NCBI GenBank assembly: GCA_958431155.1
Contig: OY288106.1
Coordinates: 1,323,888-1,387,887, forward strand
DNA from: an uncultured candidatus Porisulfidus sp.
GTDB lineage: Bacteria; Pseudomonadota; Gammaproteobacteria; Poriferisulfidales; Poriferisulfidaceae
Reading direction: 5' to 3'
Length of the DNA stretch: 64,000 nucleotides
The notes beneath the pieces are model-generated. The model ran no database searches and was not told the origin of the DNA. It saw only the letters and a list, made by a program, of their open reading frames with translations. Below are positions 6,547 through 20,676 of the stretch, piece after piece. The position numbers and the translations under genes were made by a program. How positions within the stretch are numbered: position 1 is the first letter of the stretch; the number at the start of each line of letters is the position of its first letter.

Positions 6547-8736
6547 TCATCGGCATTCCAGCTTTGCGTAGTCGTACATAAACCACTTGACGCCCGCGTC
6601 CATATCATCAAAGCGGACCTGAACGCGTAACTGTGGCGGCCGGCCCTCGTATTCTACGATGATCCCGGAGCCGAATTTCGGATGTACCACCGCTGTGCCC
6701 GGGCCCGGCACGTCCAAGTCGGCCGCAGGGACCGGACGGGCAGCCCCGGCCCCGTACCTTGCCAAAAACGCAGAAGCGGGCGGGATGAAATCTTTCGGCA
6801 CCTCGGTCTCGGTGTATTCGTCCGGCAATTCATGCAGGAAACGCGACGGGACCAGGCCCGAGGACATGCGCCCGAAGATCAACCGCTCGTAGGCATGCGT
6901 TAGAACCAACTGCTGCCGGGCACGTGTCATGCCGACGTAGCACAGCCGGCGCTCCTCTTCGAGCGGCGAATCCTCCCGCGTCATCGGCAAAACACCGTCC
7001 TCCAGCCCAACGATGAACACCACGGGAAACTCCAAGCCCTTGGCCATGTGCAGGGTCATCAATTGGACCGCGTCCCCGGATGCCCCTTCACCCCGCTCGC
7101 CGGCCTGCAACGCGGTACTGTCAAGAAAAGCCTCGGTCAGGCCGGGACCATCGTCTTCGTCAGGCTCCCAGGCATCCTCGAACGCCGCGGCCGAATTCAC
7201 CAGTTCCCCCAAGTTCTCGCTGCGCACCTCCTCCAGTTCCCGGTCGTTCTCCTGGTACATTGCCAGTAATCCGGACTTGTCCAGGATGCGTCGGAGAGCC
7301 TCGGCCAACCCGCACCCCTGGGTTTCCTCGCGCAAGGCCGCCATGCATTCCTCGAATTCTGCCAGTGCGCGGCCCGCACGTGAGGTGGGCTGGCTCTTGA
7401 CCTGCTCCTGCGCCACTGCAAACAATGATCCATCGGCGGCAGAAGCAGCGGTGCGGACCGCCTCGACTGTCCCCGCGCCGATGCCCCGGGGAGGAACGTT
7501 GCACACCCGCTGCCAGGCGACATCGTCGTTCGGATTCAGGCACAGCCGCAGATACGCCAAGGTGTCCTTCACTTCACGTCGCTCAAAGAATCGGATTCCC
7601 CCGTACACCCGGTAGGGAATTTGCCGGTTGTTCAGGTTTGTCTCGAAAGGCTGCGACTGCCGGTTCGTTCGGTAGAGCACGGCGCATTCGTCCCATCGCC
7701 CCCCCGCCCTCACCCATTGTTCAATCTTTCCAACGACATAGGTCGCTTCCGCCCCACCGGTCGGCGCGCTGAACACGGTGATCGGATCCCTTTCGGGTCG
7801 GTCGGTCCACAACCGCTTCTGTAAGCGGTCGTCGTTGTTCCCGATCAATGCATTGGCCGCTTCCAGCACCGGGGTGATGGAGCGATAGTTCTGCTCCAGC
7901 GGCCAGACCTGGACATTCTTGTGGTTCTTCTGGAAGTCGAGGATATGCCTCGGACGCGCCCCCCGCCAACCGTAGATTGACTGGTCGTCATCGCCGACCA
8001 CGAACAGCGGGCGTTCATCGCCCGCCAACAACTTCAGCCAGGCATTCTGCAGGTCGTCCACATCCTGGAATTCATCCACCAACAGATGGCGGAACCGCAA
8101 CTGATAGTGTTGTTGCACAGCGGAATGATCGCGCAGCAACTCGACGCATCGCAACAGCAATTCGTCGAAATCCACCAAGCCACTCTGGTCGCAGCGTCTC
8201 TCGTACCGCTCCATCACCTGAAGGCGGACCTCTTCCCGTTTGTTTTCAGGTTCGATGTGGCGAGCACGCAGGCCTTCCCCTTTTTTCAGACTGATCCAGC
8301 GGGCAGCGTCGGCAACATCGCGTGCCTTGCGCGGCTGGTCAAGGTCCCGCAGGATCTGGCGGATCAAGGTTTTCTGGTCTTCGCGGTCCAGAATCTGGAA
8401 GTTTCCGGGCAGTCCGGCCTCCTCGTGGAAGCGCAGCAGCATCCGGCGGGCCAGTGCATGAAAGGTTCCGACCCACAGGCCGCCCGCAGGTTGCCCCCGC
8501 AGCCGCTCGATGCGTCCCCGCATCTCGGCCGCCGCCTTGTTCGTGAACGTAACCGTCAGGATTTCCTTTGGCTGGATGTCCTGTGTCTTCACCAGCCAAG
8601 CGAAACGGTGGGTTAGCACCCGGGTCTTGCCGGAGCCGGCACCTGCCAGCACCAAAGTGCAATGGTCCGGATCCGATGTAACTGCGTTGCGTTGCGCCTC
8701 GTTCAGGACATCCAGGACCGGATCCGCCGGGGTCAT
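6547..8736 (-). CDS. uvrD: DNA helicase II, UvrD
   Basis: 729 aa (E. coli UvrD 720). Superfamily 1A 3'-5' helicase: Walker A AGAGSGKT near residue 30, the DEFQDVD Walker B region, [13 protein letters not shown], a QNYRS motif, and [16 protein letters not shown] of motif V. The C-terminal [16 protein letters not shown] is the Tudor-like module found in UvrD/PcrA. It acts in nucleotide excision repair, mismatch repair and clearing of RecA or RNA polymerase. The frame runs upstream into ubiB, but the ATG at 8736 forms a 4-base ATGA overlap with ubiB and gives the family-normal N-terminus. Last gene of the ubiJ-ubiB-uvrD unit. Confidence 0.95.
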
Positions 8737-10277
8737 CCGGCCCCCCCGTGCAGGAATGCCAGCCCACCCCCCAGCGCCAATGCCACGATGATGACCACTG
8801 CCAACCAGACACGAATACGCTTGAGTTTGCGCCGGGAGGCCGCTAATTCCGTGCGAAGTGCCGGAGAGGGATCCGGCGGTGAAGCGACAGCGGAATCTCC
8901 GAGAAAACTCTCGATCAACTGCGGCAGGCGGTGGCGTGCAAGCCGGATCAACGCAGGCAGCCCGGTCTGTGCGCTGACCCAACGGTCCATGAAGGGTTTG
9001 GCGGTGGCCCACAGGTCGAGGTCCGGGTACAGTTCGCGGCCGACGCCTTCGATGTTGACCAGGGTTTTCTGCAACAGTACCAGCTGCGGCTGCACTTCCA
9101 TCTGGAACCGGCTTGCAGTCTGAAACAGCCGCATCAACAGGTTCGCGAACGAGATTTCGGAGAACGGCCGCTGGAAAATCGGCTCGCACACGGTGCGGAT
9201 GGCCGCTTCGAACTCCTCCACCCGGGTACCGGACGGAACCCAGCCGGATTCCACGTGCAGTTCCGCCACCCGCCGGTAGTCATGGTTGAAGAAGGCCGCG
9301 AGATTGAACGCCAGATAGCGCTGATCGAAAGCCGACAGCGACCCCATGATGCCGAAATCCACCGCACTGTACTTCGGCGACTCCGGGGTCTCCCGGGAAA
9401 TGAAGATATTGCCGGGGTGCATGTCGGCGTGGAAGAAGTTGTGGTCGAACACCTGGGTGAAGAAGATCTCCACGCCTCGCTCAGCCAGGCATTTCAGGTC
9501 GACCCCGTGGCGCAGCAGCTCCTCGCGGTCCGAGATCTGGATCCCGTACACGCGCTCCATGGTCATGACGTTCCTTGAAGTGTAGTCCCAGTACACCTCC
9601 GGCACGTACAACAACTTGCTGTGTTCGAAGTTGCGCCGCAGCTGGCTTGCATTGGCAGCCTCACGCGTCAAATCCAGTTCGTCGAAGATGATGCCCTCGT
9701 ATTCGGCCACCAGGTCGACCGGATGCAGACGGCGGGACCCCGCCCAGTAGCGCTCGACAAACCGGGCCAGCATATACATCAGCCGGATGTCGCGGCGAAT
9801 CGTCTTCTCGATTTCAGGGCGCAGCACCTTGACGATAACGTCGATGTCGCCCAAGCGTGCCGCATGCACCTGGGCCACCGAAGCAGAAGCAAGTGGCGTG
9901 GTGTCGAACTGGCTGAACATTTCCTGAACCGTTCTCCCCAGCGACTGTTCGATGGTCCTGCGGGCCGCCTTGCCATCGAAGGGAGGCACCCGGTCCTGAA
10001 GGCGGGCCAGTTCATCGGCCAGATCGGCGGGCAACAGGTCGCGCCGGGTCGACAGCATCTGCCCAAACTTGACGAAGATGGGTCCCAAGTCCTCCAACGC
10101 GCGCCGGATACGCTCCGCCTGCGGCTGGCGCGACCGACGGAGCCAGTGCCAGGGTAGCAAACAAAGCAGCCCGCGGCCCAACCGAAATCGGGACAGGGCG
10201 ATTTCGTCGAGACCGTGGCGCAACAGCACCCACGGGATGTAGAGCGGTCGCGCGATGACGCGCGCCTGCCAGTTCAT
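8733..10277 (-). CDS. ubiB: Ubiquinone biosynthesis accessory kinase-like protein UbiB
   Basis: 514 aa (E. coli 546). An atypical protein-kinase-like ATPase of the ADCK/ABC1 family needed for aerobic ubiquinone biosynthesis. The family KxGQ motif is at [13 protein letters not shown], the AAAS-type loop at [12 protein letters not shown], the HADMHPGN catalytic-loop equivalent and the DFGIMG metal-binding motif are all visible. A hydrophobic C-terminal helix (about residues 487-508) anchors it to the inner membrane. ATGA overlaps tie it to ubiJ upstream and uvrD downstream. In many relatives ubiE directly precedes ubiJ-ubiB; here ubiE lies about 9 kb away beyond the inserted cluster. Confidence 0.95.
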
Positions 10278-10834
10278 GGCCGGATGCGGTCGAGCCGCAG
10301 CTCAAACCGCTCCAAGTCGTCGCGGAGCCGGTCCACCTCGCGCACGAAGCGATCCAGTTCGGAAGCGCGCGGCAGCAACCCCGACTCCTCATGCAGATAA
10401 TCCCGGGTGTTGCTCTCGGCCGTGGCGCCGAAATTCCGGGCCACCTGTCGAGATTCCTCGAACGTCCGCATCATCAATCGAGCCGGCACATCGCCGACGG
10501 CGCGGGACAGCAGTTCCTCCCAGTCGATGTCCAGGGTGGTTAGAAAGTCCCGGAGATCCTGCGCGATTTCACCCTCGCCTTCCAGATGGATGCTGTCAGC
10601 CCGACCATTGAGCACATACCGGACAAAGGCTGCCAAATGCCCGCGAACCGCGAGATCCGACCGTTCTTCCGGAGGCTCCACGATCAACTGCCCATCGTCT
10701 ATGCGCAGCCCGATAGCAGGCAACGGGAAAAGTTCCAGCCGGATCGTGCATCGCCCCATCGCCTGAAGACGCTTCTGCGCTTCTGCGTCGGTGCGCAGAG
10801 CCTGATCGATAAGGGCGGAAAGCGAGGCAAACAT
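10274..10834 (-). CDS. ubiJ: Ubiquinone biosynthesis accessory factor UbiJ (SCP2 domain)
   Basis: 186 aa (E. coli UbiJ about 200). An SCP2-type lipid-binding domain fills the first 110 residues ([19 protein letters not shown] then [11 protein letters not shown]), followed by a Glu/Arg-rich helical tail ending ELRLDRIRP, as in UbiJ. With UbiK, UbiJ organises the soluble ubiquinone-synthesis complex and binds isoprenoid intermediates. The 4-base overlap with ubiB supports the assignment. It is divergent from the unknown cluster; a TATAAT lies at 10875-10880 on its strand, about 40 bases before the start. Confidence 0.9.
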
Positions 10835-10906: not shown

Positions 10907-11752
10907 ATGCCCAAAACCATGTCAACGTACGCGCGGCTGCTTTCGCTGGGGCTACTAGCATCGCTCTGCGGTGCCAGTTACGCGACGGAATCGCCATTTT
11001 CTATCGGCTCGGATCCCACGTTGCAAATCGCCCTGCGACTGATCTCGGATGAGACCCGGCAGGAGCAGGCATCGACCGACGATGCCAAGGTGGAAGATTC
11101 TTCCGCTTCCGTACCCTCTGTTGAAGATTCCGAGGAACAAGGCTCGGAATCCGCAGAACAAGCCGAGGGAGATACCCCATCCACGCAAGCCTCTGACATA
11201 CCGTCTTCCGAGGAGGGACTTCCTGAAGATCTTGGCCTCTCGGACCAAGAAGAAGGCCGGGAACCTGCGGAACGGGGGACGGCCGGTAGAACCGAGGATT
11301 CCGGTCTCGAAGATGAACTCGAAAGAGATCCGGAGCTTGCCGGGCAGGGCAGTCTGGAAGAAGAGCGAGAGAGGAATCTTGCCCGCGCCGAGGCGATACT
11401 GAACCGCGTCGACCAGATCCTGCTGGACGCACGCGCCCGGGCCCGCCAGAAACGGGAGGGACGGGACGACGGGGACGGGACGGTCGGATCGATACCGGAT
11501 GAAGATTCGCCGGCGCGGGAAACACAAGGCGATGCCGAAGGGGAAGCTGGGGAGAAGGACACCGGACCCGGCAGAGCCGCCGAAGGGCGGATCCCAGGCA
11601 ACGTCCCGACCGGCAAGACCCGACCTTCCCACGGCTATGACCGGGACGAGGACATCGTGACGCGGCAGGTCTGCGAACTGGCGGAACGGGAAGAAGATCC
11701 TGAAGTCCGGAAGCACCTGGAAGAGAAATGCAGAAGCCTGAAAGACGGGTAG
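10907..11752 (+). CDS. Cluster gene 1: highly acidic exported protein
   Basis: 281 aa from ATG 10907 (277 from ATG 10919). Residues 1-26 form a signal peptide (LLSLGLLASLCGASYA before TES). The mature protein is strikingly rich in Glu, Asp, Ser and Gly with almost no hydrophobic core for about 200 residues, so this part is probably disordered; a short helix-forming LARAEAILNRVDQILLDARA sits in the middle. The last 35 residues are different, with two Cys (VCELAEREEDPEV then EEKCRSLK) that could form a disulphide-stabilised helical hairpin. No recognised family. First of nine overlapping plus-strand genes; its end overlaps the lipoprotein gene by 25 bases. Confidence 0.7.
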   Translation: MPKTMSTYARLLSLGLLASLCGASYATESPFSIGSDPTLQIALRLISDETRQEQASTDDAKVEDSSASVPSVEDSEEQGSESAEQAEGDTPSTQASDIPSSEEGLPEDLGLSDQEEGREPAERGTAGRTEDSGLEDELERDPELAGQGSLEEERERNLARAEAILNRVDQILLDARARARQKREGRDDGDGTVGSIPDEDSPARETQGDAEGEAGEKDTGPGRAAEGRIPGNVPTGKTRPSHGYDRDEDIVTRQVCELAEREEDPEVRKHLEEKCRSLKDG

Positions 11753-12906
11753 CCCTGATCGCGCTGCTGCTGGTCTTGGCCAGCGGATGCCAGCTCGGTG
11801 GCGGCTACGGAGCCCTGCTCGGCGACCGGCCGGAAGAGCCAGCCGGCGAGCCAGTATCGGAAGAGTGGTACCTGGATGCCGGCATCATCCAGTTCGAGGG
11901 GAAAGTCGACGAGGAGCAGGTGGCCGAAGGGGAAGTGTTCCGCCAAGTGCGGAAAGCCGAAACCCTGTATTTCCCCCAGCAGTTGCGACAGGCGATGCTG
12001 CGCGGCGGCGGCTGGCGGCACGTGTGGGTGGTGCCGGAGGGCGCGGCCCCGGATCTGCGCATCGAGGGCGCAATCCTGGAGTCCAACGGTTCCGAGCTGG
12101 AACTGGAAATACGCGCCTACGACGCGACCGGTGCGAAATGGGTCGACCGCGTCTACCAGCATGAATTCAGCGAGACCGATTACGCCGGCGAAGACAGGGC
12201 ACGGCCGATGGATACCCTGTTCGACCGGATTGCGAAGGACCTCCTGATCGAACGCGACCGGAAGGGAGTGGCGGCCATGAAGGAAATCCGCGCCGTAGCG
12301 GAATTGCGGTTCGCGGGGGAATTCGCGCCGCAGGCGTTTGAGCGCCATATGAAGGCGCACGATGGCCGCGTCCGGCTGGTTTCGCTGCCCGCCAAGGAAG
12401 ACACGCTGTACCAGTTGGTGCTGCAGATCAAGGAGCGCGACGACCTGTTCATCGAAACCCTGCAGGAATACTCGGAGGGCTTCGCGGAAACGCTCGATGC
12501 ACCGTATCGGGACTGGGCACGGCAGAGCTTCTACGAACGTCGCGCGCACGACGAGAATGTCTCGACCAGCGTGGCACAGGGACTGTTGAGTGCACTGGCC
12601 ATCATCGGAGGGGTCGTCATCGCAGCCGATTCCGGATCCACCCCGGAAGCACGGCAACTCGGGCAGGTGCTGGTCGGAGCCGGAGCCTACGGCGCCTATG
12701 ATGCCTATCAGGACTACGAGGCGACGGAGATCCATGAGGCCGCGCTCAAGGAACTTGGTCAATCGCTCGATCTGGAAGTAGAGCCCCAGGTCGTACAGGT
12801 GGAGAACCAGACGCGCACGCTTACCGGGTCGGTTGAAGACCAGTACCAACAGTGGCACGAAATCCTGAACGAAATCTACTTGTCGGAACGTGGCGGCCTG
12901 AACTGA
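11728..12906 (+). CDS. Cluster gene 2: unknown lipoprotein
   Basis: 392 aa. The N-terminus MQKPERRVALIALLLVLASGC is a lipoprotein signal with lipobox LASGC (lipidated Cys21). There is no Asp after the Cys, so outer-membrane sorting is expected. The mature domain is mixed alpha/beta with a hydrophobic stretch around residues 285-303 (SALAIIGGVVIAADSG) followed by a glycine/alanine/tyrosine-rich segment that may insert in or lie on a membrane. I do not recognise the family; a distant resemblance in shape to periplasmic NlpC-free lipoproteins with internal hydrophobic hairpins is all that can be said. Embedded in the operon, overlapping genes 1 and 3. Confidence 0.75.
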   Translation: MQKPERRVALIALLLVLASGCQLGGGYGALLGDRPEEPAGEPVSEEWYLDAGIIQFEGKVDEEQVAEGEVFRQVRKAETLYFPQQLRQAMLRGGGWRHVWVVPEGAAPDLRIEGAILESNGSELELEIRAYDATGAKWVDRVYQHEFSETDYAGEDRARPMDTLFDRIAKDLLIERDRKGVAAMKEIRAVAELRFAGEFAPQAFERHMKAHDGRVRLVSLPAKEDTLYQLVLQIKERDDLFIETLQEYSEGFAETLDAPYRDWARQSFYERRAHDENVSTSVAQGLLSALAIIGGVVIAADSGSTPEARQLGQVLVGAGAYGAYDAYQDYEATEIHEAALKELGQSLDLEVEPQVVQVENQTRTLTGSVEDQYQQWHEILNEIYLSERGGLN

Positions 12907-13631
12907 TCCCGGTTGCGCTGGCGCTGGCGGCAGGATTGGCCGCAGGAACCGCCGCAGCCGAGGACATCCAAGAGAAGGCGCTGCTTGCGATTCTCGATGC
13001 CGATTGGACCCGGGCCGCGGGATTGTGGGCGCAGGTAGACGGGCAACGGGCCCGCGACTACCTGCAACAGGCGCGGGCGGAGCTCCAGTTCCAGCAAACC
13101 CAGCCTTTGTTAAACGAGGCCTTCGCAGCACAGCAGCGAGAGGATTGGGCGGCGGCGGACACTGCCTATCTCAAGGCGCTGGCCGTCTCCCCGTATCTGA
13201 AGGCGGCACACCAAGGCCGCAAGCAGGTCGAACTGTACATCGAAGCGCACCGGCGGCTGGACGCGCTGAAACTGCCGGACGGCCTGTACGACAAGGTCAT
13301 ACGGGCACGGGCAAAAGAGTGGCTTGCCTACGTCCGGGAAAAGAAACTCAATGACCGGAAAATTGCCAAGGCGCGTACGGATCTTGCCGCCGCCCTCAAG
13401 CTGGCACAGGTTCCGGTTTCCCTGGTCCTGACTTCGGACAACCAGTCCGATATCGAAATCTATGGTGTCGGAAAGCTCGGCCGGCTTGAGCGCCAGACCA
13501 TGCAATTGGTGCCCGGCGACTACATCGTCGTCGCCAGCCGGCCTGGATACCGGGATGCACGCGCGACGTTGAAAGTGCGGCCCGGCAAGCCCGTCGCCCT
13601 TGACATCCGGTGCACGGAGTCGATCCAGTGA
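12852..13631 (+). CDS. Cluster gene 3: exported TPR-like protein with C-terminal PEGA-like domain
   Basis: 259 aa from GTG 12852, which overlaps gene 2 by 55 bases; a CTG at 12903 would give the 4-base CTGA overlap typical of this operon but is a rare start codon. Either way a signal peptide follows (LIPVALALAAGLAAGTAAA). Residues about 37-170 are helical and repeat-like (RDYLQQARAELQF, EDWAAADTAYLKALAVSPY), consistent with TPR-like packing. The last 80 residues form a beta module with LVPGDYIVVASRPGYRD and a closing valine strand, matching the PEGA pattern seen in the next protein. Probably a periplasmic scaffold that contacts gene 4's product; inference from architecture only. Confidence 0.75.
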   Translation: MARNPERNLLVGTWRPELIPVALALAAGLAAGTAAAEDIQEKALLAILDADWTRAAGLWAQVDGQRARDYLQQARAELQFQQTQPLLNEAFAAQQREDWAAADTAYLKALAVSPYLKAAHQGRKQVELYIEAHRRLDALKLPDGLYDKVIRARAKEWLAYVREKKLNDRKIAKARTDLAAALKLAQVPVSLVLTSDNQSDIEIYGVGKLGRLERQTMQLVPGDYIVVASRPGYRDARATLKVRPGKPVALDIRCTESIQ

Positions 13632-15445
13632 TTCTTGACCACGAGCCGGTCCAGGCCCGATCCTACCAGCCTCCCAAGCGGAAGAGACGCCGGGATCGCT
13701 CGTCGCCACCACGTTTTCGGGGGGCGTGGCTGGTGGTTTTTCTCCTGGTGCTGTTGACGGCCGGTGCCTGGTACGTGACGGAACAAGTACAGTTCATCGA
13801 CTTCGAGACCGACCCGGTCGAGGCCTCGGTGCGCCTCGAGAGCCCGCACACGATGGTGGGCGGACAGGTTTTGCTCTGGCGGGGCCGGCACATCGCGAAC
13901 GTGACGGCGGAGGGCTATCACCCCCGGCAGGTGGAATTCGAGGCGGGCAGAGATGCGCCTCGCACCGTGCCAGTGACCCTGGACCCTCTTCCGGGCAAAC
14001 TCCGGGTCTCTACGACACCCGAAGCCGAGGGAGAAGTCCGGGTGGACGGCGAACGTGCCGGAGGGATCGGCGAAACACTGGAAGACCTCTCTCCGGGTCG
14101 TCATGTCGTGCAGGTAGGCGCGGAAGGTTTCGAGATGCACCGGCAGACGGTGGAAATCGAGGGGTACGGGCGACTGACCGAAATCGAGATCTCACTCCAG
14201 AAAATTGTAACGCCCGCCTTGCTTGCAGTTTCCAGTACGCCTGAGGCCGCAGACATATTGATCGATGGCGCCTGGCGGGGCCGCACCCCGAAACAGGTCG
14301 CGCTGACCCCGGACACCGAGGTAGAGGTCGCCTTGCTGCTCCCCGGCCATGCCCCGAACCGCCAAACCTTGAAACTGAAATCCGGCCGGCAAAGCCACGT
14401 AGCAACTTTGATCTCTCGCACCGGCGTCCTTGAACTGTGGCCGACCCCGGCCAATGCGACGATTCGCGTTGACGGGCAGGTGGAACTCCGCCGCCAGTTG
14501 CGGCTGCCGCAGCAAGCACACACCATCGAAGTCTCCGCGCCGGGCTACGTACCGAAGAAGTATGTCGTCGTGCCGCATCCCGATGCGCCAAAGCAACTTT
14601 TCGCCGTCCTGCAATCGCAGGCGAAGGTCGAATATTCCCGGCGCCAGAAGCACGAGCGGGATCTCGGCTTGGCCTTCATCGAGTTCCAGCCTCGCGGGTC
14701 GTTCGAGATCACGACCACTCGCCGCCGTATCCCGGTGCGCCTGACGCGGCCGTTCTCGATCATGGACAGGGAAGTCACCAATGCCCTGTACCAACGCTAT
14801 CAGGCCGGGCATGATTCCGGAAAGGTCTTCGGCAAGCGCCTGGATCGGCCAAGCCAACCGGTCGTGCGGATCAGTTGGGCGGATGCGGCGCTCTTTGCGA
14901 ACTGGATGAGCGAACAGGCGGGCGTCTCGCCGTTCTACCGGGTGCGCGACGGACGGATCGAGGGATTCGACGCGAACGCGACCGGGTACCGTCTGCCAAG
15001 CGAGGCCGAGTGGGTCTGGCTGACTCGCTCCGAGAAGCGATACGCCTGGGGGGACTTCATGCCGCCTCCGGATCGCTTCGGCAATCTGGCGGACGCTTCT
15101 GCCGCCGACATCGTGCAGCCTGTGCTGGAGGAATACAACGATGGGCATGCCGTCAGTGCCGATGTCGGGAGTTTTCCGCCCTCAGCCCAAGGGTTGTATG
15201 ATTTGCCGGGCAACGTGGCGGAATGGATGCACGACGTGTTTCTCGACAAACTGCGGATTTCGGCCCGCCCGGAGCCGGAGCGCGTCAACCCGCTGGGTGA
15301 AGCCAGCGGCCGATACTATGTCATCCGGGGGTTCGGCTGGCGCGACAGCGGGCGCAAGGAGTTGAGCCTGAGCAACCGCCGCTACGACCGGCATCCCAGG
15401 GACGATGTGGGATTCCGGCTGGCCTACTACCTGGATTCACCATGA
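13628..15445 (+). CDS. Cluster gene 4: membrane-anchored PEGA-repeat protein with cysteine-free FGE/SUMF1 domain
   Basis: 605 aa from GTG 13628, chosen for the GTGA overlap with gene 3 and GGAG at 13616-13619; a GTG at 13610 is also in frame. A basic cytoplasmic tail (PPKRKRRRDR) precedes one membrane helix (about residues 33-50), so the bulk is periplasmic. Four PEGA-like beta modules follow (about 55-340; e.g. LSPGRHVVQVGAEGFEMH and AHTIEVSAPGYVPKKY). Residues about 344-602 are a formylglycine-generating-enzyme/SUMF1 fold: MDREVTNALYQRY, GYRLPSEAEWVWLTR, YDLPGNVAEWMHD and DDVGFRLAY. True FGE uses two cysteines; here I find no Cys in the whole protein, so oxidase activity is excluded and a structural or binding role is likely. 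Confidence 0.9.
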   Translation: MILDHEPVQARSYQPPKRKRRRDRSSPPRFRGAWLVVFLLVLLTAGAWYVTEQVQFIDFETDPVEASVRLESPHTMVGGQVLLWRGRHIANVTAEGYHPRQVEFEAGRDAPRTVPVTLDPLPGKLRVSTTPEAEGEVRVDGERAGGIGETLEDLSPGRHVVQVGAEGFEMHRQTVEIEGYGRLTEIEISLQKIVTPALLAVSSTPEAADILIDGAWRGRTPKQVALTPDTEVEVALLLPGHAPNRQTLKLKSGRQSHVATLISRTGVLELWPTPANATIRVDGQVELRRQLRLPQQAHTIEVSAPGYVPKKYVVVPHPDAPKQLFAVLQSQAKVEYSRRQKHERDLGLAFIEFQPRGSFEITTTRRRIPVRLTRPFSIMDREVTNALYQRYQAGHDSGKVFGKRLDRPSQPVVRISWADAALFANWMSEQAGVSPFYRVRDGRIEGFDANATGYRLPSEAEWVWLTRSEKRYAWGDFMPPPDRFGNLADASAADIVQPVLEEYNDGHAVSADVGSFPPSAQGLYDLPGNVAEWMHDVFLDKLRISARPEPERVNPLGEASGRYYVIRGFGWRDSGRKELSLSNRRYDRHPRDDVGFRLAYYLDSP

Positions 15446-15666
15446 GGTGGCTCTGGCCAATGCCCCTTTGCGCGGCAGCAACCTTGGCATGGGCCGAAGA
15501 GCCCCCCGTGCCACAGGCAGGAGAAGAGGAGGAGGGCCGACAGGTTATCGAGATCCTGACCGAAGAGGACCTCAAGCAGGAAACCCCATCGATCACGCTC
15601 AAGCAGCTGACCCCGAAGGAAACCATTTCCCTCGACGAAGCCGTGGACATGCCCAGTGATATCTAG
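15442..15666 (+). CDS. Cluster gene 5: small acidic exported protein
   Basis: 74 aa. A signal peptide (residues 1-18, MRWLWPMPLCAAATLAWA) leaves a mature peptide of about 56 residues dominated by Glu, Gln and Thr, with a run of five acidic residues near its start and repeated short motifs (ILTEEDLKQET, LTPKETISLDEA). It has no membrane helix and no recognised domain. ATGA overlap with the PEGA/FGE gene and 11-base overlap with the channel gene tie it firmly to the operon, which is the main reason to believe such a small gene. Possibly a linker peptide between periplasmic partners. Confidence 0.65.
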   Translation: MRWLWPMPLCAAATLAWAEEPPVPQAGEEEEGRQVIEILTEEDLKQETPSITLKQLTPKETISLDEAVDMPSDI

Positions 15667-16537
15667 GTTGACGAATCTGGCCGGACACTGGCGCGAACAC
15701 GAGGTGTTCTGGCAATTGCTGGCGTTGGCATTGTCATTCGTGCTGGTGCATGCGGCATATGAACTGGTGGTGCGGCCGGCCGCCTACGAGGAACTGCAAC
15801 GCCAAGCTGTCGCCGAGGAGCAGGCCGAGATAGCGCCGCCGACCCTCGGGGCGCGAGTTGCCGTGGTCGTCAAGGACTACGAGCAGGAGGCCTGTTTTGT
15901 CGCCCTGTTCTGGGCGCTCGCCATCATGTGGATGAAACTGCTGAAACTGCGCTTCGCGCGCAGGCTGTTAAGCCTGCGCGGCCGGCATGGCGAGGAAAGC
16001 TTCCTGGAAACCCGGGAAACCGACCTGGTCCTGCCTCAGGCGCAGGATCGGGCGCGCTTCACCGACGTACGCGAACATGCGCGAATGCAGGGCTACGGCG
16101 GCACCGTGCTGTATCGGGCCGCCGATACCTGCCTGGACCGTTTCTTCACCACGCATTCCGTGTCGGATGCCACCGCGGCCATGAAGGCCAGTTGCGAAAT
16201 GGAGTCGGATCGGCAAGACACCGAACTGGCGTTGGTGCGCTACCTGACCTGGGCCATCCCGTCGCTCGGATTCATCGGGACGGTACGCGGGATCGGCGCG
16301 GCCCTGGGACAGGCCGAGGAAGCCACGCGCGGCAACATCGGGCCAGTGACGGAAAGCCTCGGGGTGGCGTTCAACTCGACTTTCGTGGCCCTGTTGATCA
16401 GCCTGTTCATCATGCTGCTGCTGCATAAACTGCAGGAAGCCCAAGAGTCGTTGGTGCTGGATGCCCAGGAGCATTGCCAGCACCACTTGCTGCGTTACCT
16501 GCGGGAGCGGACGCGGACGGATGACCCAGCTGCTTAG
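15656..16537 (+). CDS. Cluster gene 6: MotA/TolQ/ExbB-type proton-channel subunit
   Basis: 293 aa from GTG 15656. Four hydrophobic segments (about 17-40, 78-97, 193-215, 232-258) with a cytoplasmic region between the second and third, the MotA/TolQ topology. The diagnostic channel motif is SLGFIGTVRGIGAALGQA at about 201-218, followed by LGVAFNSTFVALLISLF in the last helix. Members form pentamers around two B subunits (MotB, ExbD, TolR) and convert proton or sodium flow into movement. No MotB/TolR gene of the usual kind is present; the two VWA proteins downstream carry a matching Asp-containing helix and are the likely partners. Confidence 0.85.
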   Translation: MISRLTNLAGHWREHEVFWQLLALALSFVLVHAAYELVVRPAAYEELQRQAVAEEQAEIAPPTLGARVAVVVKDYEQEACFVALFWALAIMWMKLLKLRFARRLLSLRGRHGEESFLETRETDLVLPQAQDRARFTDVREHARMQGYGGTVLYRAADTCLDRFFTTHSVSDATAAMKASCEMESDRQDTELALVRYLTWAIPSLGFIGTVRGIGAALGQAEEATRGNIGPVTESLGVAFNSTFVALLISLFIMLLLHKLQEAQESLVLDAQEHCQHHLLRYLRERTRTDDPAA

Positions 16538-17426
16538 GATCGACAGCTACGCGCTGACACAACCCGACGGCGCCGAATGGCAGACCGAGTGGTGCATCGC
16601 CCGCCATGACGCGAAGGCCGGCTGGCGATTCGGGGAAAAAGCGGGCGAACTGCTGCAACCAAAGCGCACCGATAGCGAAAACAACGAATATCTCGAAGCG
16701 CCAGAGTCAGAAGAAGGCCGGAGTCCGTCATGCACCGATCTGGCGTATTTTCAGCTGCAGGGATTCCTGTCGGAAGGAGAGGGGCCGATCGACCTTTCGG
16801 TGAGCGGAGGGATCGGGCAACCGCGGCTCGAATCGCTGCTGGGCGTATTGGAAGCCCTGGGCTACACGCTCCGCGGCGTGTTCCCGACCGCGCTGTTGGC
16901 GACCCGGGATCTCCCGCCTGGGCGTTACGGAATCATAGAACTAGGGCGCAGCCGAAGTTGGATCAGCACCATCGACGTCCAGCCGGGACGGGCACGGCTG
17001 GAATCGGTCCGGGAATACGGGGATTTCGGATTCTACCACCTGTTCACCCAGTGGATGGAGAACGTGGCGGAGGCGTTCGCGACCCAGCACCGCTTCGACA
17101 TACACCGCAATCTCGCGGCAAACCGCGAACAATTGTTCGGTCAGATGCGCCGGGCCTTTGCCGAAAAGCCGGAACAGATACAGTTCAGCCTTGACTCCCG
17201 GCTCGTGACGCTGGACGAAACAATCTTCCGGGCCCGCTGGCCGAAACCCGCTCTCGACACGGAGGGACTGGAACTCCTGCTGCTGCCCCCGCTGGCACTG
17301 CCGCTGCCAGAGCAAGGGCTGGGCCTGCCCTGCTGCAGCAATCCCGCACCCCAAACCTACCCCGACTTGGCTGCCACGCTCCCGGAAGACGGGCAGGCCC
17401 GCCGCTGCACGGCTCTTTCTTTTTGA
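16521..17426 (+). CDS. Cluster gene 7: unknown cytoplasmic protein, possibly degenerate actin/Hsp70 fold
   Basis: 301 aa from ATG 16521, which has a GGACGG just upstream and overlaps the channel gene by 17 bases. No signal peptide or membrane helix. The middle part (about residues 85-215) reads like the second half of an actin/Hsp70-type ATPase: a Leu-rich helix (RLESLLGVLEALGYTLRGVF), then a 'phosphate-2'-like strand pair (GRYGIIELGRSRSWISTIDV) lacking the usual DxGxxT residues, then REYGDFGFYHLFTQWMENVA, like the GG-D-F-D helix of Hsp70. ATP binding is therefore doubtful. Position beside a channel subunit suggests a cytoplasmic regulator or assembly platform. The fold call is my inference. 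Confidence 0.65.
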   Translation: MTQLLRIDSYALTQPDGAEWQTEWCIARHDAKAGWRFGEKAGELLQPKRTDSENNEYLEAPESEEGRSPSCTDLAYFQLQGFLSEGEGPIDLSVSGGIGQPRLESLLGVLEALGYTLRGVFPTALLATRDLPPGRYGIIELGRSRSWISTIDVQPGRARLESVREYGDFGFYHLFTQWMENVAEAFATQHRFDIHRNLAANREQLFGQMRRAFAEKPEQIQFSLDSRLVTLDETIFRARWPKPALDTEGLELLLLPPLALPLPEQGLGLPCCSNPAPQTYPDLAATLPEDGQARRCTALSF

Positions 17427-18470
17427 ATGTCCAGGCGTCGACGCAACCGTTTTCTGAATCCGTTCGGCTTGGCCTTTCTGGACGTCATGTCCTGCGGGTT
17501 GGGAGCCGCGGTGCTGCTGTTTTTGATCATCGACCATAACCTGACCGAGCTGGCGCAGGCATCGGAAAGCGGCGAAGGAGACCTGCAACTGCTGGAACAG
17601 TCCATCCAGGAACAGGAAGAACTGATCGCCGGCCATCAGCGCCAGGTGCGGCAGTTGAGACGCGAACTGCAAAGCCTGGCACAACAGCGCGTGGCCGCCA
17701 TGACCACTCAGGCCGAACTCCGCGCCCGTCAACCGCAGGCGTCCGACACGATTCGGCTGGAAAAGGAATTGCGCGAGCGGAAGCAGAAGCTTCAGGAGGC
17801 AAAGAAAAGCAAGCAGTTGAGGGCAACGGAAGGAGAAGGCCAGCGTCAGTACGTGGCCGGCTTTCGGGTCGAGGGACGCCGCATCCTGATCTTGCTGGAT
17901 CGCTCGGCCAGCATGCAGGATGAGCGCATCGCCTCGATCATCCGCAACAAGTTTCTTCCGATCAAGTACCAGATCGAGAGCTATAAATGGCGTTGGGCGC
18001 GCTCCATCTTCGAGTGGATCCTCGCGCACATGCCAAAGCAGACACAGTATCAAGTCTGGGGTTTCAGCACCACAGCAACGCCTGCGCTACCGAAACGCGG
18101 GTGGCTGCAGGCGGAAGACGAGAAGCGGATGGAAGAGGTGATCGCGGCGGTACAGGGCTGGGTTCCCTCGGGAGGCACTCGCCTGGATACGGCCCTCGCG
18201 AAGGTCGCCCAGATGAAACCCAGGCCGGATGCGGTTTATCTGATCACGGACGGCCTCCCGACACAAGGGAAATCCTGGTTCAAGAAAAACCGGGTCAGCC
18301 CCACCCAGCGCATGGAGTTTTTCCAGGCGGCGACGGAAGGAATCGCCAGCCCACCGTTCAATATCGTTCTGCTGCCGCTTGAGGGCGACCCGGCGGCGGC
18401 CGGGGCCTACTGGGGATTCGCCATGCAGACCGACGGGCAGTTTCTGGCCCCTGCGGAGGACTGGCCGTGA
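17427..18470 (+). CDS. Cluster gene 8: membrane-anchored coiled-coil VWA protein
   Basis: 347 aa; starts on the base after gene 7's stop. A basic tail (SRRRRNRF) precedes a helix whose start reads FLDVMSCGLGAAVLLFLII (about residues 17-35), similar in placement of Asp to the MotB/ExbD/TolR helix. Residues about 45-135 are a long Gln/Glu/Arg coiled coil. A von Willebrand factor A domain fills about 150-345 with a complete metal-ion-dependent adhesion site: DRSAS, the Thr in GGTRLDTAL and the Asp in YLITDGLPTQG. The VWA domain should lie in the periplasm. Proposed as one of two B-type stator subunits. Overlaps gene 9 by GTGA. Confidence 0.85.
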   Translation: MSRRRRNRFLNPFGLAFLDVMSCGLGAAVLLFLIIDHNLTELAQASESGEGDLQLLEQSIQEQEELIAGHQRQVRQLRRELQSLAQQRVAAMTTQAELRARQPQASDTIRLEKELRERKQKLQEAKKSKQLRATEGEGQRQYVAGFRVEGRRILILLDRSASMQDERIASIIRNKFLPIKYQIESYKWRWARSIFEWILAHMPKQTQYQVWGFSTTATPALPKRGWLQAEDEKRMEEVIAAVQGWVPSGGTRLDTALAKVAQMKPRPDAVYLITDGLPTQGKSWFKKNRVSPTQRMEFFQAATEGIASPPFNIVLLPLEGDPAAAGAYWGFAMQTDGQFLAPAEDWP

Positions 18471-19495
18471 GGCGCCCCCGCCGACCCGCCGACAACCGCC
18501 TGTCGTTTCTCGACGTGATCAGTTGCGGGTTCGGAGCCATGGTGCTGCTGATCCTGATCACCAAGAACACCGTGGGCGAGCCGATCGAGGACCTGCAGGC
18601 ACAGATCGAGACGCTGCAGGAGCAACTCGCGCGCGTGATGCAGGTTCAAGCCGGCCTGGCTTCCGAGCGCCTCAAAGAGCAGGCCCGGGTACGCACCCAG
18701 AGGGAAAAACTTCAGGAAGACCGGAAGGCCGTGGAGGAAGCGCAACAGGCGAACGCCAGTGCCAAGGCGCAAGCTTTGATCGAAGCGAATCTAAAAACCG
18801 CGCTGCAAAGCCTCAACGAAGAAATGCGGCGGCTGAACCTGACTGCGTCCGAACCGGACGTGATCGGCGGAATCCCGGCCGACAGCGAATACATCATTTT
18901 CATCGTGGACACGTCCGGCAGCATGAAGCGATTCGCTTGGGGAGCCGCCAAACAGCAACTGGTGGCCCTGCTGGACGCCTACCCGAAAGTGCGCGGGCTC
19001 CAGGTCATGAACGACATGGGTTCGTACATGTTCAGCGGCTACCGGGGACGCTGGATTCCGGACACGCCTGCACGAAGGAAGGTCCTCCTGCAGCGTTTCG
19101 ATTCTTGGCACTCCTACAGCAACTCAAGTCCGGTCGAGGGAATTCTTGAGGCCATCAAGCGCTTCCGCATGAAGTCCGACAAGATCAGCCTGTACATCTT
19201 TGGCGACGAGTACACCGGCGAATCGGTTCAAGAGGTCATCGACACGGTGGACGACCTCAACCACCAAGACGGCAAACGGCAGGTCCGTATTCACGCAGTC
19301 GGGTTCTTCACCCGGACGCAGATCGAGAAGATCGATCCCAAATACGCCGACACGACCAGCCGCTTCGCGGGATTGATGCGGGAACTGACGCGGCGAAACG
19401 GCGGAACTTTCCTAGGGGTTACGGTGGAGGAATCCCCGAAGAGAAGCGCCAAGCATGGACAACCAAAGTTTTTCATCCCCCGAACCGGTGGGTAA
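18467..19495 (+). CDS. Cluster gene 9: second membrane-anchored coiled-coil VWA protein
   Basis: 342 aa from GTG 18467 in a GTGA overlap. Same plan as gene 8: basic tail, helix FLDVISCGFGAMVLLILIT (about residues 14-32), coiled coil of Gln/Glu/Lys heptads to about residue 130, then a VWA domain (about 138-320). The adhesion site has DTSGS and the Asp of LYIFGDEYTG, but the middle Thr element is replaced by a Ser-rich NSSPVEGIL, so metal binding may differ from gene 8. The two proteins are similar only at the N-terminal helix and overall architecture, suggesting a heteromeric pair rather than a recent duplication. Last gene of the cluster, convergent with ubiE. Confidence 0.85.
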   Translation: MRRPRRPADNRLSFLDVISCGFGAMVLLILITKNTVGEPIEDLQAQIETLQEQLARVMQVQAGLASERLKEQARVRTQREKLQEDRKAVEEAQQANASAKAQALIEANLKTALQSLNEEMRRLNLTASEPDVIGGIPADSEYIIFIVDTSGSMKRFAWGAAKQQLVALLDAYPKVRGLQVMNDMGSYMFSGYRGRWIPDTPARRKVLLQRFDSWHSYSNSSPVEGILEAIKRFRMKSDKISLYIFGDEYTGESVQEVIDTVDDLNHQDGKRQVRIHAVGFFTRTQIEKIDPKYADTTSRFAGLMRELTRRNGGTFLGVTVEESPKRSAKHGQPKFFIPRTGG

Positions 19496-19574: not shown

Positions 19575-20306
19575 TCAGTCGATCCGCGCTCCGCGATGGA
19601 TCGCCACAATCCCGGCACTCAGGTTGAAGTACTGGCAGGACGCAAACCCTGCAGCGCGCATCATCTCGCGCAGGGTTCGCTGATTCGGGTGCACCGCGAT
19701 GGATTCGGCCAGATAACGGTAGCTGTCGCGGCTCCCCGCCACCAACTCGCCGAGTCTCGGCAGGATCTGATGCGTGTATGTACGGTAGAGCGGCTCCAGC
19801 CAAGCGGATGGCTCGGAAAACTCAAGTACAAGCGCCAGCCCACCGGGACGCAGGATCCGGTGCATCTCGCGCAGGCATGCCGAAGGGTCTGTGAAGTTGC
19901 GCAATCCGAACCCGACCAGGATCCGGTCAAACGATTCCGACTCGAACGGGAGTGCCGACGCATCCCCCTGCACGACCGGAATGTCTGCCAGGCCTTCGTC
20001 CAGCAACCGATCCCGACCCTGCGTCAGCATGCCGCTGCTGATGTCGCACAGGACCACCTGTCCGTCCGGACCGATCCTTGAGCGGACCAGTTGAGCCAAG
20101 TCGCCAGTTCCACCGGCGAGATCCAGAACGCGCTGGCCCTCCCGAAGTTGCGCCAAAAGCGTAAACGTTCGCTTCCATACGCGATGCAACCCAAATGACA
20201 TCAGGTCATTCATCAAGTCGTAGCGAAACGCCACCGACTCGAACACCTCGTTCACCAGACGGGTTTTCTCGTCCGGCTCGACCTGCTTGTAGCCGAAACG
20301 CGCCAT
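19575..20306 (-). CDS. ubiE: Ubiquinone/menaquinone C-methyltransferase UbiE
   Basis: 243 aa (E. coli 251). Class I SAM-dependent methyltransferase that adds the C-methyl group to the benzoquinol (and, where present, naphthoquinol) ring. SAM motif I is VLDLAGGTGDLA; motif ARFGYKQVEPDEKTRLVNEVF at the start and LVGFGLRNFTDPSACLREM are UbiE signatures; QILPRLGELVAGSRDSYRYL is the second family signature. The ATG at 20306 follows GGAG and is preferred to an upstream in-frame codon. It lies 4 bases after the DUF971 gene. Its usual neighbour ubiJ is displaced by the nine-gene cluster. Confidence 0.95.
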   Translation of the reverse strand: MARFGYKQVEPDEKTRLVNEVFESVAFRYDLMNDLMSFGLHRVWKRTFTLLAQLREGQRVLDLAGGTGDLAQLVRSRIGPDGQVVLCDISSGMLTQGRDRLLDEGLADIPVVQGDASALPFESESFDRILVGFGLRNFTDPSACLREMHRILRPGGLALVLEFSEPSAWLEPLYRTYTHQILPRLGELVAGSRDSYRYLAESIAVHPNQRTLREMMRAAGFASCQYFNLSAGIVAIHRGARID

Positions 20307-20310
20307 GGAC

Positions 20311-20676
20311 TCAGTTCTCCACGGCCTTCCGCTCAACCCCGGCTTCTTTCAGGCGCCCCAAATAGCGTTGCCAGCGCTCTTCGTAAGAGTGGCCCAACTC
20401 GTACAGGTAATCCCAGGAATAAATGCCCGTGTCATGGCCGTCGCTGAATACCAGTTTCACCGCATAGTTGCCGACCGGCTCGATGGCGTCGATGGCGACG
20501 TCCTCCTTGCCGACCTGCAGGGTTTCCTGCCCCGGGCCGTGGCCCATGACCTCGGCCGAGGGTGAATAGACCCGCAGGTATTCACAACTTAGTTGGAAGC
20601 GATCCTCGCCGAACGCGATCTCCAAGACTCGGGAACGCTGGTGCAGGTGCAGTTCCGTAGGGGTGTTCTCAGCCAT
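20311..20676 (-). CDS. DUF971 / gamma-butyrobetaine hydroxylase N-terminal-like protein
   Basis: 121 aa. A single GBBH-like N-terminal domain (DUF971): ELHLHQRSRVLEIAFGEDRF, the conserved SCEYLRVYSPSAEVMGHG segment, and NYAVKLVFSDGHDTGIYSWDYLYELG near the middle. In the eukaryotic hydroxylase this domain binds zinc; the bacterial stand-alone proteins have no assigned reaction but are regularly found next to ubiE or hslUV and may serve in metal handling or a partner interaction. Located between xerC and ubiE, same strand, probably cotranscribed. Confidence 0.85.
   Translation of the reverse strand: MAENTPTELHLHQRSRVLEIAFGEDRFQLSCEYLRVYSPSAEVMGHGPGQETLQVGKEDVAIDAIEPVGNYAVKLVFSDGHDTGIYSWDYLYELGHSYEERWQRYLGRLKEAGVERKAVEN

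Follow-up and report, generated by a model that had tools for sequence, protein, structure and literature searches.

A conserved nine-gene cluster that very probably encodes an ion-powered envelope motor with two VWA heads

What kind of machine is encoded by nine genes that place a MotA/TolQ/ExbB-type channel subunit beside two membrane-anchored VWA proteins and a series of exported ones? The question is raised by a locus in an uncultured candidatus Porisulfidus sp., whose genome is a single contig of 1.59 Mb and from which a stretch of 64,000 nucleotides (the window) was analysed. A first-pass annotation, made from the sequence of the window, read the locus as an undescribed, ion-driven machine spanning the cell envelope. 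Here, we consider how far that reading holds, which parts of it have precedents, and what the machine might do.

Layout and conservation of the cluster

All nine ORFs were found on the plus strand of the window at 10907-19495, mostly overlapping, where the first-pass annotation had put them, and Pfam and profile matches support the part types assigned there (Table 1). Neighboring genes overlap by 25 bp (g1/g2), 55 bp (g2/g3, with an uncertain start), 22 bp (g3/g4), 4 bp (g4/g5), 11 bp (g5/g6) and 4 bp (g8/g9), with an overlap of 0 for g7/g8; g6 and g7 share 17 bp if g7 begins with the ATG at 16521, and 77 bp with the first ATG of the ORF.

Table 1. The nine genes of the cluster (window coordinates) and the main evidence for each.
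Gene	Product	Position	Strand	Evidence
g1	Exported acidic protein	10907..11752	+	Profile found in 56/60 long loci
g2	Lipoprotein with a possible ring-lipoprotein-type fold	11728..12906	+	AlphaFold, fold matches; 59/60 loci
g3	Signal/anchor, TPR-like helices, PEGA-like C-terminus	12852..13631	+	Weak Pfam, relatives
g4	Single-TM protein; PEGA repeats plus FGE-fold domain	13610..15445	+	PF03781, PF08308; 60/60 loci
g5	Exported 74-aa peptide, largely disordered, conserved extreme C-terminus	15442..15666	+	64/69 loci
g6	MotA/TolQ/ExbB-type channel subunit, about 4 TM	15656..16537	+	PF01618 7e-12; pore Thr 75/75
g7	Cytoplasmic Hsp70-ATPase-fold protein	16521..17426	+	AlphaFold, Foldseek, VIA, profiles
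g8	Trans-pore helix (Asp19), coiled coil, VWA with complete MIDAS	17427..18470	+	VWA_2 7e-7; Asp 83/83
g9	Trans-pore helix (Asp16), coiled coil, VWA	18467..19495	+	Asp 85/85; profile relative of g8

When the genomes of about 85,000 bacterial and archaeal species were searched with an alignment of g9, at least 458 relatives emerged; the best 80 loci were taken, and these span the Gammaproteobacteria, Desulfobacterota and Acidobacteria (phyla as in the record titles, mostly of metagenome bins). Sixty of the 85 loci examined had enough upstream DNA to count as long, the length test not being applied to minus-strand loci, and at least one congener contig enters the set twice, so that the independent loci are slightly fewer than counted. 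All 60 long loci have their recognized genes on a single strand, arranged as g1-g2-g3-g4-(g5)-g6-(g7)-g8-g9, and 58 of the 60 contain all six core genes. Relatives are thus not scattered, in keeping with the unit that the first-pass annotation had proposed. Strand and order are kept by relatives of only 30-45% identity, and the eight genes compared with those of a congener, g2 to g9, have dN/dS values of 0.09-0.27; on both grounds, the cluster is a non-random assembly.

The nearest named relatives of the source genome are sponge-associated gammaproteobacterial bins and Candidatus Porisulfidus. Closer to the source genome, four congeners have the nine genes in order (in one, g1 gives two distinct matches), two genomes from another family of the order have every cluster gene except g7, and a more distant member of the class has all nine. 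Bowmanella, which belongs to the same order as Idiomarina, also has the cluster. In an evenly drawn census, strong g9 matches were found in about 28 of 369 genomes of the class (about 8% of the sampled Gammaproteobacteria) and about 15 of 398 genomes of the phylum, with g8 immediately upstream in nearly all of them. Carriage on plasmids was considered and set aside, g9 having no match in PLSDB.

On the opposite (minus) strand, the cluster is flanked by ubiE on one side and by a ubiJ-like gene and ubiB on the other (window 8733-10834 and 19575-20336), genes that adjoin one another in E. coli. The same site is occupied in the congeners and in none of the loci from other families, which suggests that the cluster was inserted there in this genus. 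Genes upstream of the cluster differ among relatives. In some gammaproteobacterial relatives, a TPR-like protein lies directly upstream of g1 (L111 1641-2957, L113 10745-12049, L100 14-967); one of these proteins has an end that weakly resembles TonB_C.

The motor core and its known relatives

The proposal of an ion-driven motor depends above all on g6, g8 and g9. The channel subunit g6 matches PF01618 (MotA/ExbB), and its pore threonines T209 and T242 are each invariant, as are the trans-pore aspartates of g8 and g9 (counts in Table 1); aligned by eye, these residues match the positions of the pore threonines and motor aspartate in the genome's own TolQ and TolR. The VWA domain of g8 is detected by Pfam, and that of g9 gives a match of only 0.005, under the cut-off, with an invariant DxSGS; the two proteins are profile relatives (hhalign 99.5%) with about 20% identity by profile. 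Both VWA domains retain the Asp and Ser positions of the MIDAS, and the Thr position of g9 seems to be Ser. None of the nine proteins has a Pfam match to ExbD/TolR (PF02472) or to an OmpA-type MotB partner, and no convincing solved relative of g2, g6 or g9 was found by sequence.

Because the pore Thr and both trans-pore Asp are invariant and the cluster has no TolR or ExbD gene, g8 and g9 are probably the two axle subunits of the motor. A g6:g8:g9 stoichiometry of 5:1:1 would fit an obligate VWA pair, the two genes being present together in 84 of the 85 loci. TolQRA, ExbBD and other PF01618 loci lie elsewhere in the genome, so that this would be an additional motor. The core is strongly supported by sequence, and the cluster very probably builds an envelope-spanning, ion-powered motor whose moving part bears two VWA binding heads. 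The first-pass view of an ion-driven envelope machine is upheld by the pore chemistry, the conserved exported and lipoprotein parts and the fixed gene order.

Elsewhere in the same small genome, another divergent PF01618 protein (L006, G000:C1:725778-726104) precedes a long coiled-coil protein that has an aspartate in its TM segment (FTDIMMVVVIVFLL); no partner domain was assigned to the latter, and the pair is a further candidate motor.

The core itself was already predicted in 2025 (PMC12204202, Mol Biol Evol, Fig. 4c,d). The text of that paper presents predicted TPH-vWA / TolQ-like motors, found mainly in Proteobacteria and Verrucomicrobia, in which a TolQ-like pentamer has as its dimeric partner a heterologous trans-pore vWA pair with a trans-pore aspartate. 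As described there, these motors share with our cluster a TolQ-like gene adjoining vWA genes without tolR or exbD nearby, two unlike, membrane-anchored vWA proteins that each start with a trans-pore helix, the conserved helix Asp and the ring of channel Thr. The cluster differs in being a conserved unit of nine (up to twelve) genes, and its likeness to the Idiomarina founders of the paper is one of description. The text has 0 mentions of PEGA, FGE or kinase, and names no Hsp70-like, lipoprotein, C-terminal-peptide or M48 partners for the motor. In the open-access journal literature, we found no description of the whole nine-gene set, only PMC12204202 for the core, and no experimental work on any of the members. 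The label 'undescribed' in the first-pass annotation must therefore be given up for the TolQ and vWA-pair core and can be kept for the PEGA, FGE and other partners, which go unnamed in that text. On the machine and its unity the first-pass annotation was right; it did not take account of the 2025 prediction.

How does the cluster compare with better-known machines? Tol-Pal, Ton and flagellar MotAB have the same channel family and pore chemistry; unlike them, the cluster has no ExbD/TolR, TolA/TonB or OmpA-type domain. The AglRQS-Glt gliding machinery and the related gammaproteobacterial core complex (PMC3169522) also combine one TolQ-like protein with two unlike B subunits and have TPR and FHA proteins. 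However, AglQ and AglS are ExbD-family proteins (PF02472) without VWA domains, GltG is an FHA-TonB protein, and PEGA and FGE are missing from that machinery. A direct link to the Agl/Glt core complex was rejected, as the upstream neighbors vary and no second PF01618 gene lies near the cluster in the genomes where its contig could be placed. MoxR-vWA conflict systems (PMC7159879) were also rejected, being without MotA/ExbB/TolQ.

A Zorya-type defense system would likewise couple a MotA-like channel to an anchored B partner, and g6 has a very weak match to ZorA2 (0.033). That match is the only trace in a PADLOC search, which returned nothing of weight for Zorya or any other defense system; no ZorB, ZorC or ZorD match was found, and the conserved gene set is without nuclease or helicase. 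We regard a role of this kind as highly improbable.

Exported parts and the cytoplasmic Hsp70-fold protein

The lipoprotein g2 has a lipoprotein signal with a Cys that is near-invariant among relatives. In its AlphaFold model (pLDDT 82), residues 43-185 resemble a periplasmic domain of FlgT (VIA Z 11.0), PelC (10.8), TolB-N and CsgG; the FlgT and PelC matches have a Z of about 11 over about 110-130 residues at 11-14% identity, and TolB-N and LptE-like folds score almost as well. This fold is common to ring-forming outer-membrane lipoproteins (PelC/CsgG/FlgT/TraT) and is also found in other proteins. After the domain comes a long helical hairpin, in which residues 282-300 are hydrophobic. Judged by signal and predicted fold, g2 is probably located at the outer membrane.

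The anchored protein g4 has clear Pfam matches to FGE-sulfatase (PF03781, 5e-31) and PEGA (PF08308, 9e-18). The FGE-type Cys was not found in the RGGSW...C region of the window protein or the relatives inspected, and the domain is probably a non-catalytic, structural pseudo-enzyme. The PEGA match of g3 (0.009) is under the Pfam cut-off, and its TPRs are clear in relatives.

Both acidic proteins have signal-peptide-like N-termini. In g1, a low-complexity middle precedes a conserved C-terminal segment, D-D-[IV]-x3-Q-[IV]...E-x-D-P-E...L. The g5 family has the C-terminal consensus ...ISEDLSVSFPVDI-COOH, and the window protein ends ...SLDEAVDMPSDI. Relatives mostly end in [FY]-P-x-D-I, with a near-invariant SFPxDI-COOH, and a DI-ending frame lies at this place in 64 of 69 loci. 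Among the 11,343 ORFs of the set, only 76 have such a P-x-D-I end, and almost every one of these is g5.

These parts bear on the proposal that the motor drives secretion or surface display, either exporting a substrate through a g2 ring or placing adhesive VWA/FGE parts on the cell surface, as GldLM does for the type 9 secretion system (T9SS) and gliding adhesins. GldKLMN is also an ion-driven 5:2 motor with a periplasmic FGE-fold protein, the FGE domain of g4 matches GldK (TIGR03525, score 66.9, 2e-18), and g2 combines a fold like that of CsgG/PelC-type ring lipoproteins with a hydrophobic hairpin. However, the GldK match falls well below the equivalog cut-off of 350, g4 is anchored by a TM segment and has PEGA repeats where GldK is a lipoprotein, and a VWA pair takes the place of GldM as partner of the motor. 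No T9SS genes were seen, and nothing conserved with the cluster was recognized as a T9SS sorting domain, a cargo family or a beta-barrel. T9SS was rejected as an identity for the locus, and a secretion or display role in general seems to us unlikely.

The remaining protein, g7, has the fold of the Hsp70 ATPase (AlphaFold pLDDT 82; Foldseek 1.6e-11; VIA Z 17.9 over 279 aa), with profile matches to Hsp70 (3e-5) and FHA (5e-4). Neither the canonical DLGTT phosphate loop (consensus by inspection) nor a substrate-binding domain was found in its 301 aa, and for this reason we consider g7 an Hsp70-fold protein and not a chaperone. An FHA domain is added to g7 in some relatives, and in the loci of four relatives g3 continues into a Ser/Thr kinase as a fusion protein. 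One could therefore imagine a signaling or sensing device, in which the VWA/PEGA/FGE part binds a ligand or surface and reports inward through the channel and the kinase, FHA and Hsp70-like proteins; PEGA and FGE are, after all, common extracellular binding folds. It is harder to reconcile this idea with the invariant pore Thr and trans-pore Asp, as ion-powered work would need, or with the fact that kinase and FHA are missing from most cluster members, including that of the window. We judge it improbable, somewhat more so than secretion or display.

Several relatives do without g7 (a g6-g8 gap of less than 35 bp). Downstream of the cluster, many relatives have two lipoproteins, d1 (58 loci) and d2 (51), and an M48 protease, d3 (45), which do not adjoin the window cluster; g7 and d1-d3 are thus not essential everywhere. 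A relationship of d1 or d2 to g2 was rejected, since the profile matches are confined to the lipobox region. An M48 protease 38% identical to d3 is encoded elsewhere in the genome (L119 3782-5368, G000:C1:1187290-1188696).

Proposed mechanism and significance

The reading that we prefer, with a probability of roughly 0.6, is that the cluster encodes an ion-driven 5:2-type motor that spans the envelope, drives a periplasmic scaffold and a lipoprotein ring, and is gated by g7. A g6 pentamer would enclose one g8 helix and one g9 helix, and ion flow would turn this axle, whose movement would travel along the coiled coils to the pair of periplasmic VWA heads. These would act on a scaffold of g4 (PEGA/FGE) and g3 (TPR/PEGA), through which force would reach the g2 lipoprotein ring, probably at the outer membrane. 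Perhaps each head uses its MIDAS site to hold an acidic peptide at a protein's C-terminus, such as that of g5 or g1, although this step is speculative. Gating is probably the task of the cytoplasmic, Hsp70-like g7, which would respond to signals; FHA and kinase domains occur in some relatives. Three of these elements, the ring, its motor's gating and the hold on a peptide, we infer from the parts described above.

The likeliest job of such a motor would be to move, assemble or maintain an outer-membrane or lipoprotein assembly, and we favor the passing of force to an outer-membrane ring. The gene neighborhood suggests quality control of an outer-membrane or lipoprotein assembly, since the M48 protease is linked in many relatives. 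A fuller and more tentative version, to which we give distinctly less than even odds, is a distinct rotary machine with a VWA-heterodimer axle, MIDAS sites acting on operon-encoded acidic C-terminal peptides (g5, perhaps g1), a PEGA/FGE scaffold, an outer-membrane lipoprotein ring and Hsp70-fold/FHA/kinase gating.

Beyond the motor core, most of the parts and what the machine does appear undescribed. The features that appear new are the full gene set, the Hsp70-ATPase fold of g7, the FHA and kinase domains of some relatives, the ring-lipoprotein-like fold of g2, the C-terminal motif of g5, the non-catalytic FGE domain, and the two extra lipoproteins and M48 protease of many relatives.

The ion-powered rotary machines known so far are of very few kinds (flagellar, Ton, Tol, gliding/T9SS and Zorya). 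The cluster, which about 8% of the sampled Gammaproteobacteria genomes carry and which occurs in at least two other phyla, would add another, with a parts list that is complete and conserved. Its retention in a symbiont-like genome of 1.6 Mb suggests that it matters to the cell, and with the parts list in hand this orphan motor can be put to the test in marine bacteria that grow in culture, Microbulbifer or Bowmanella for example.
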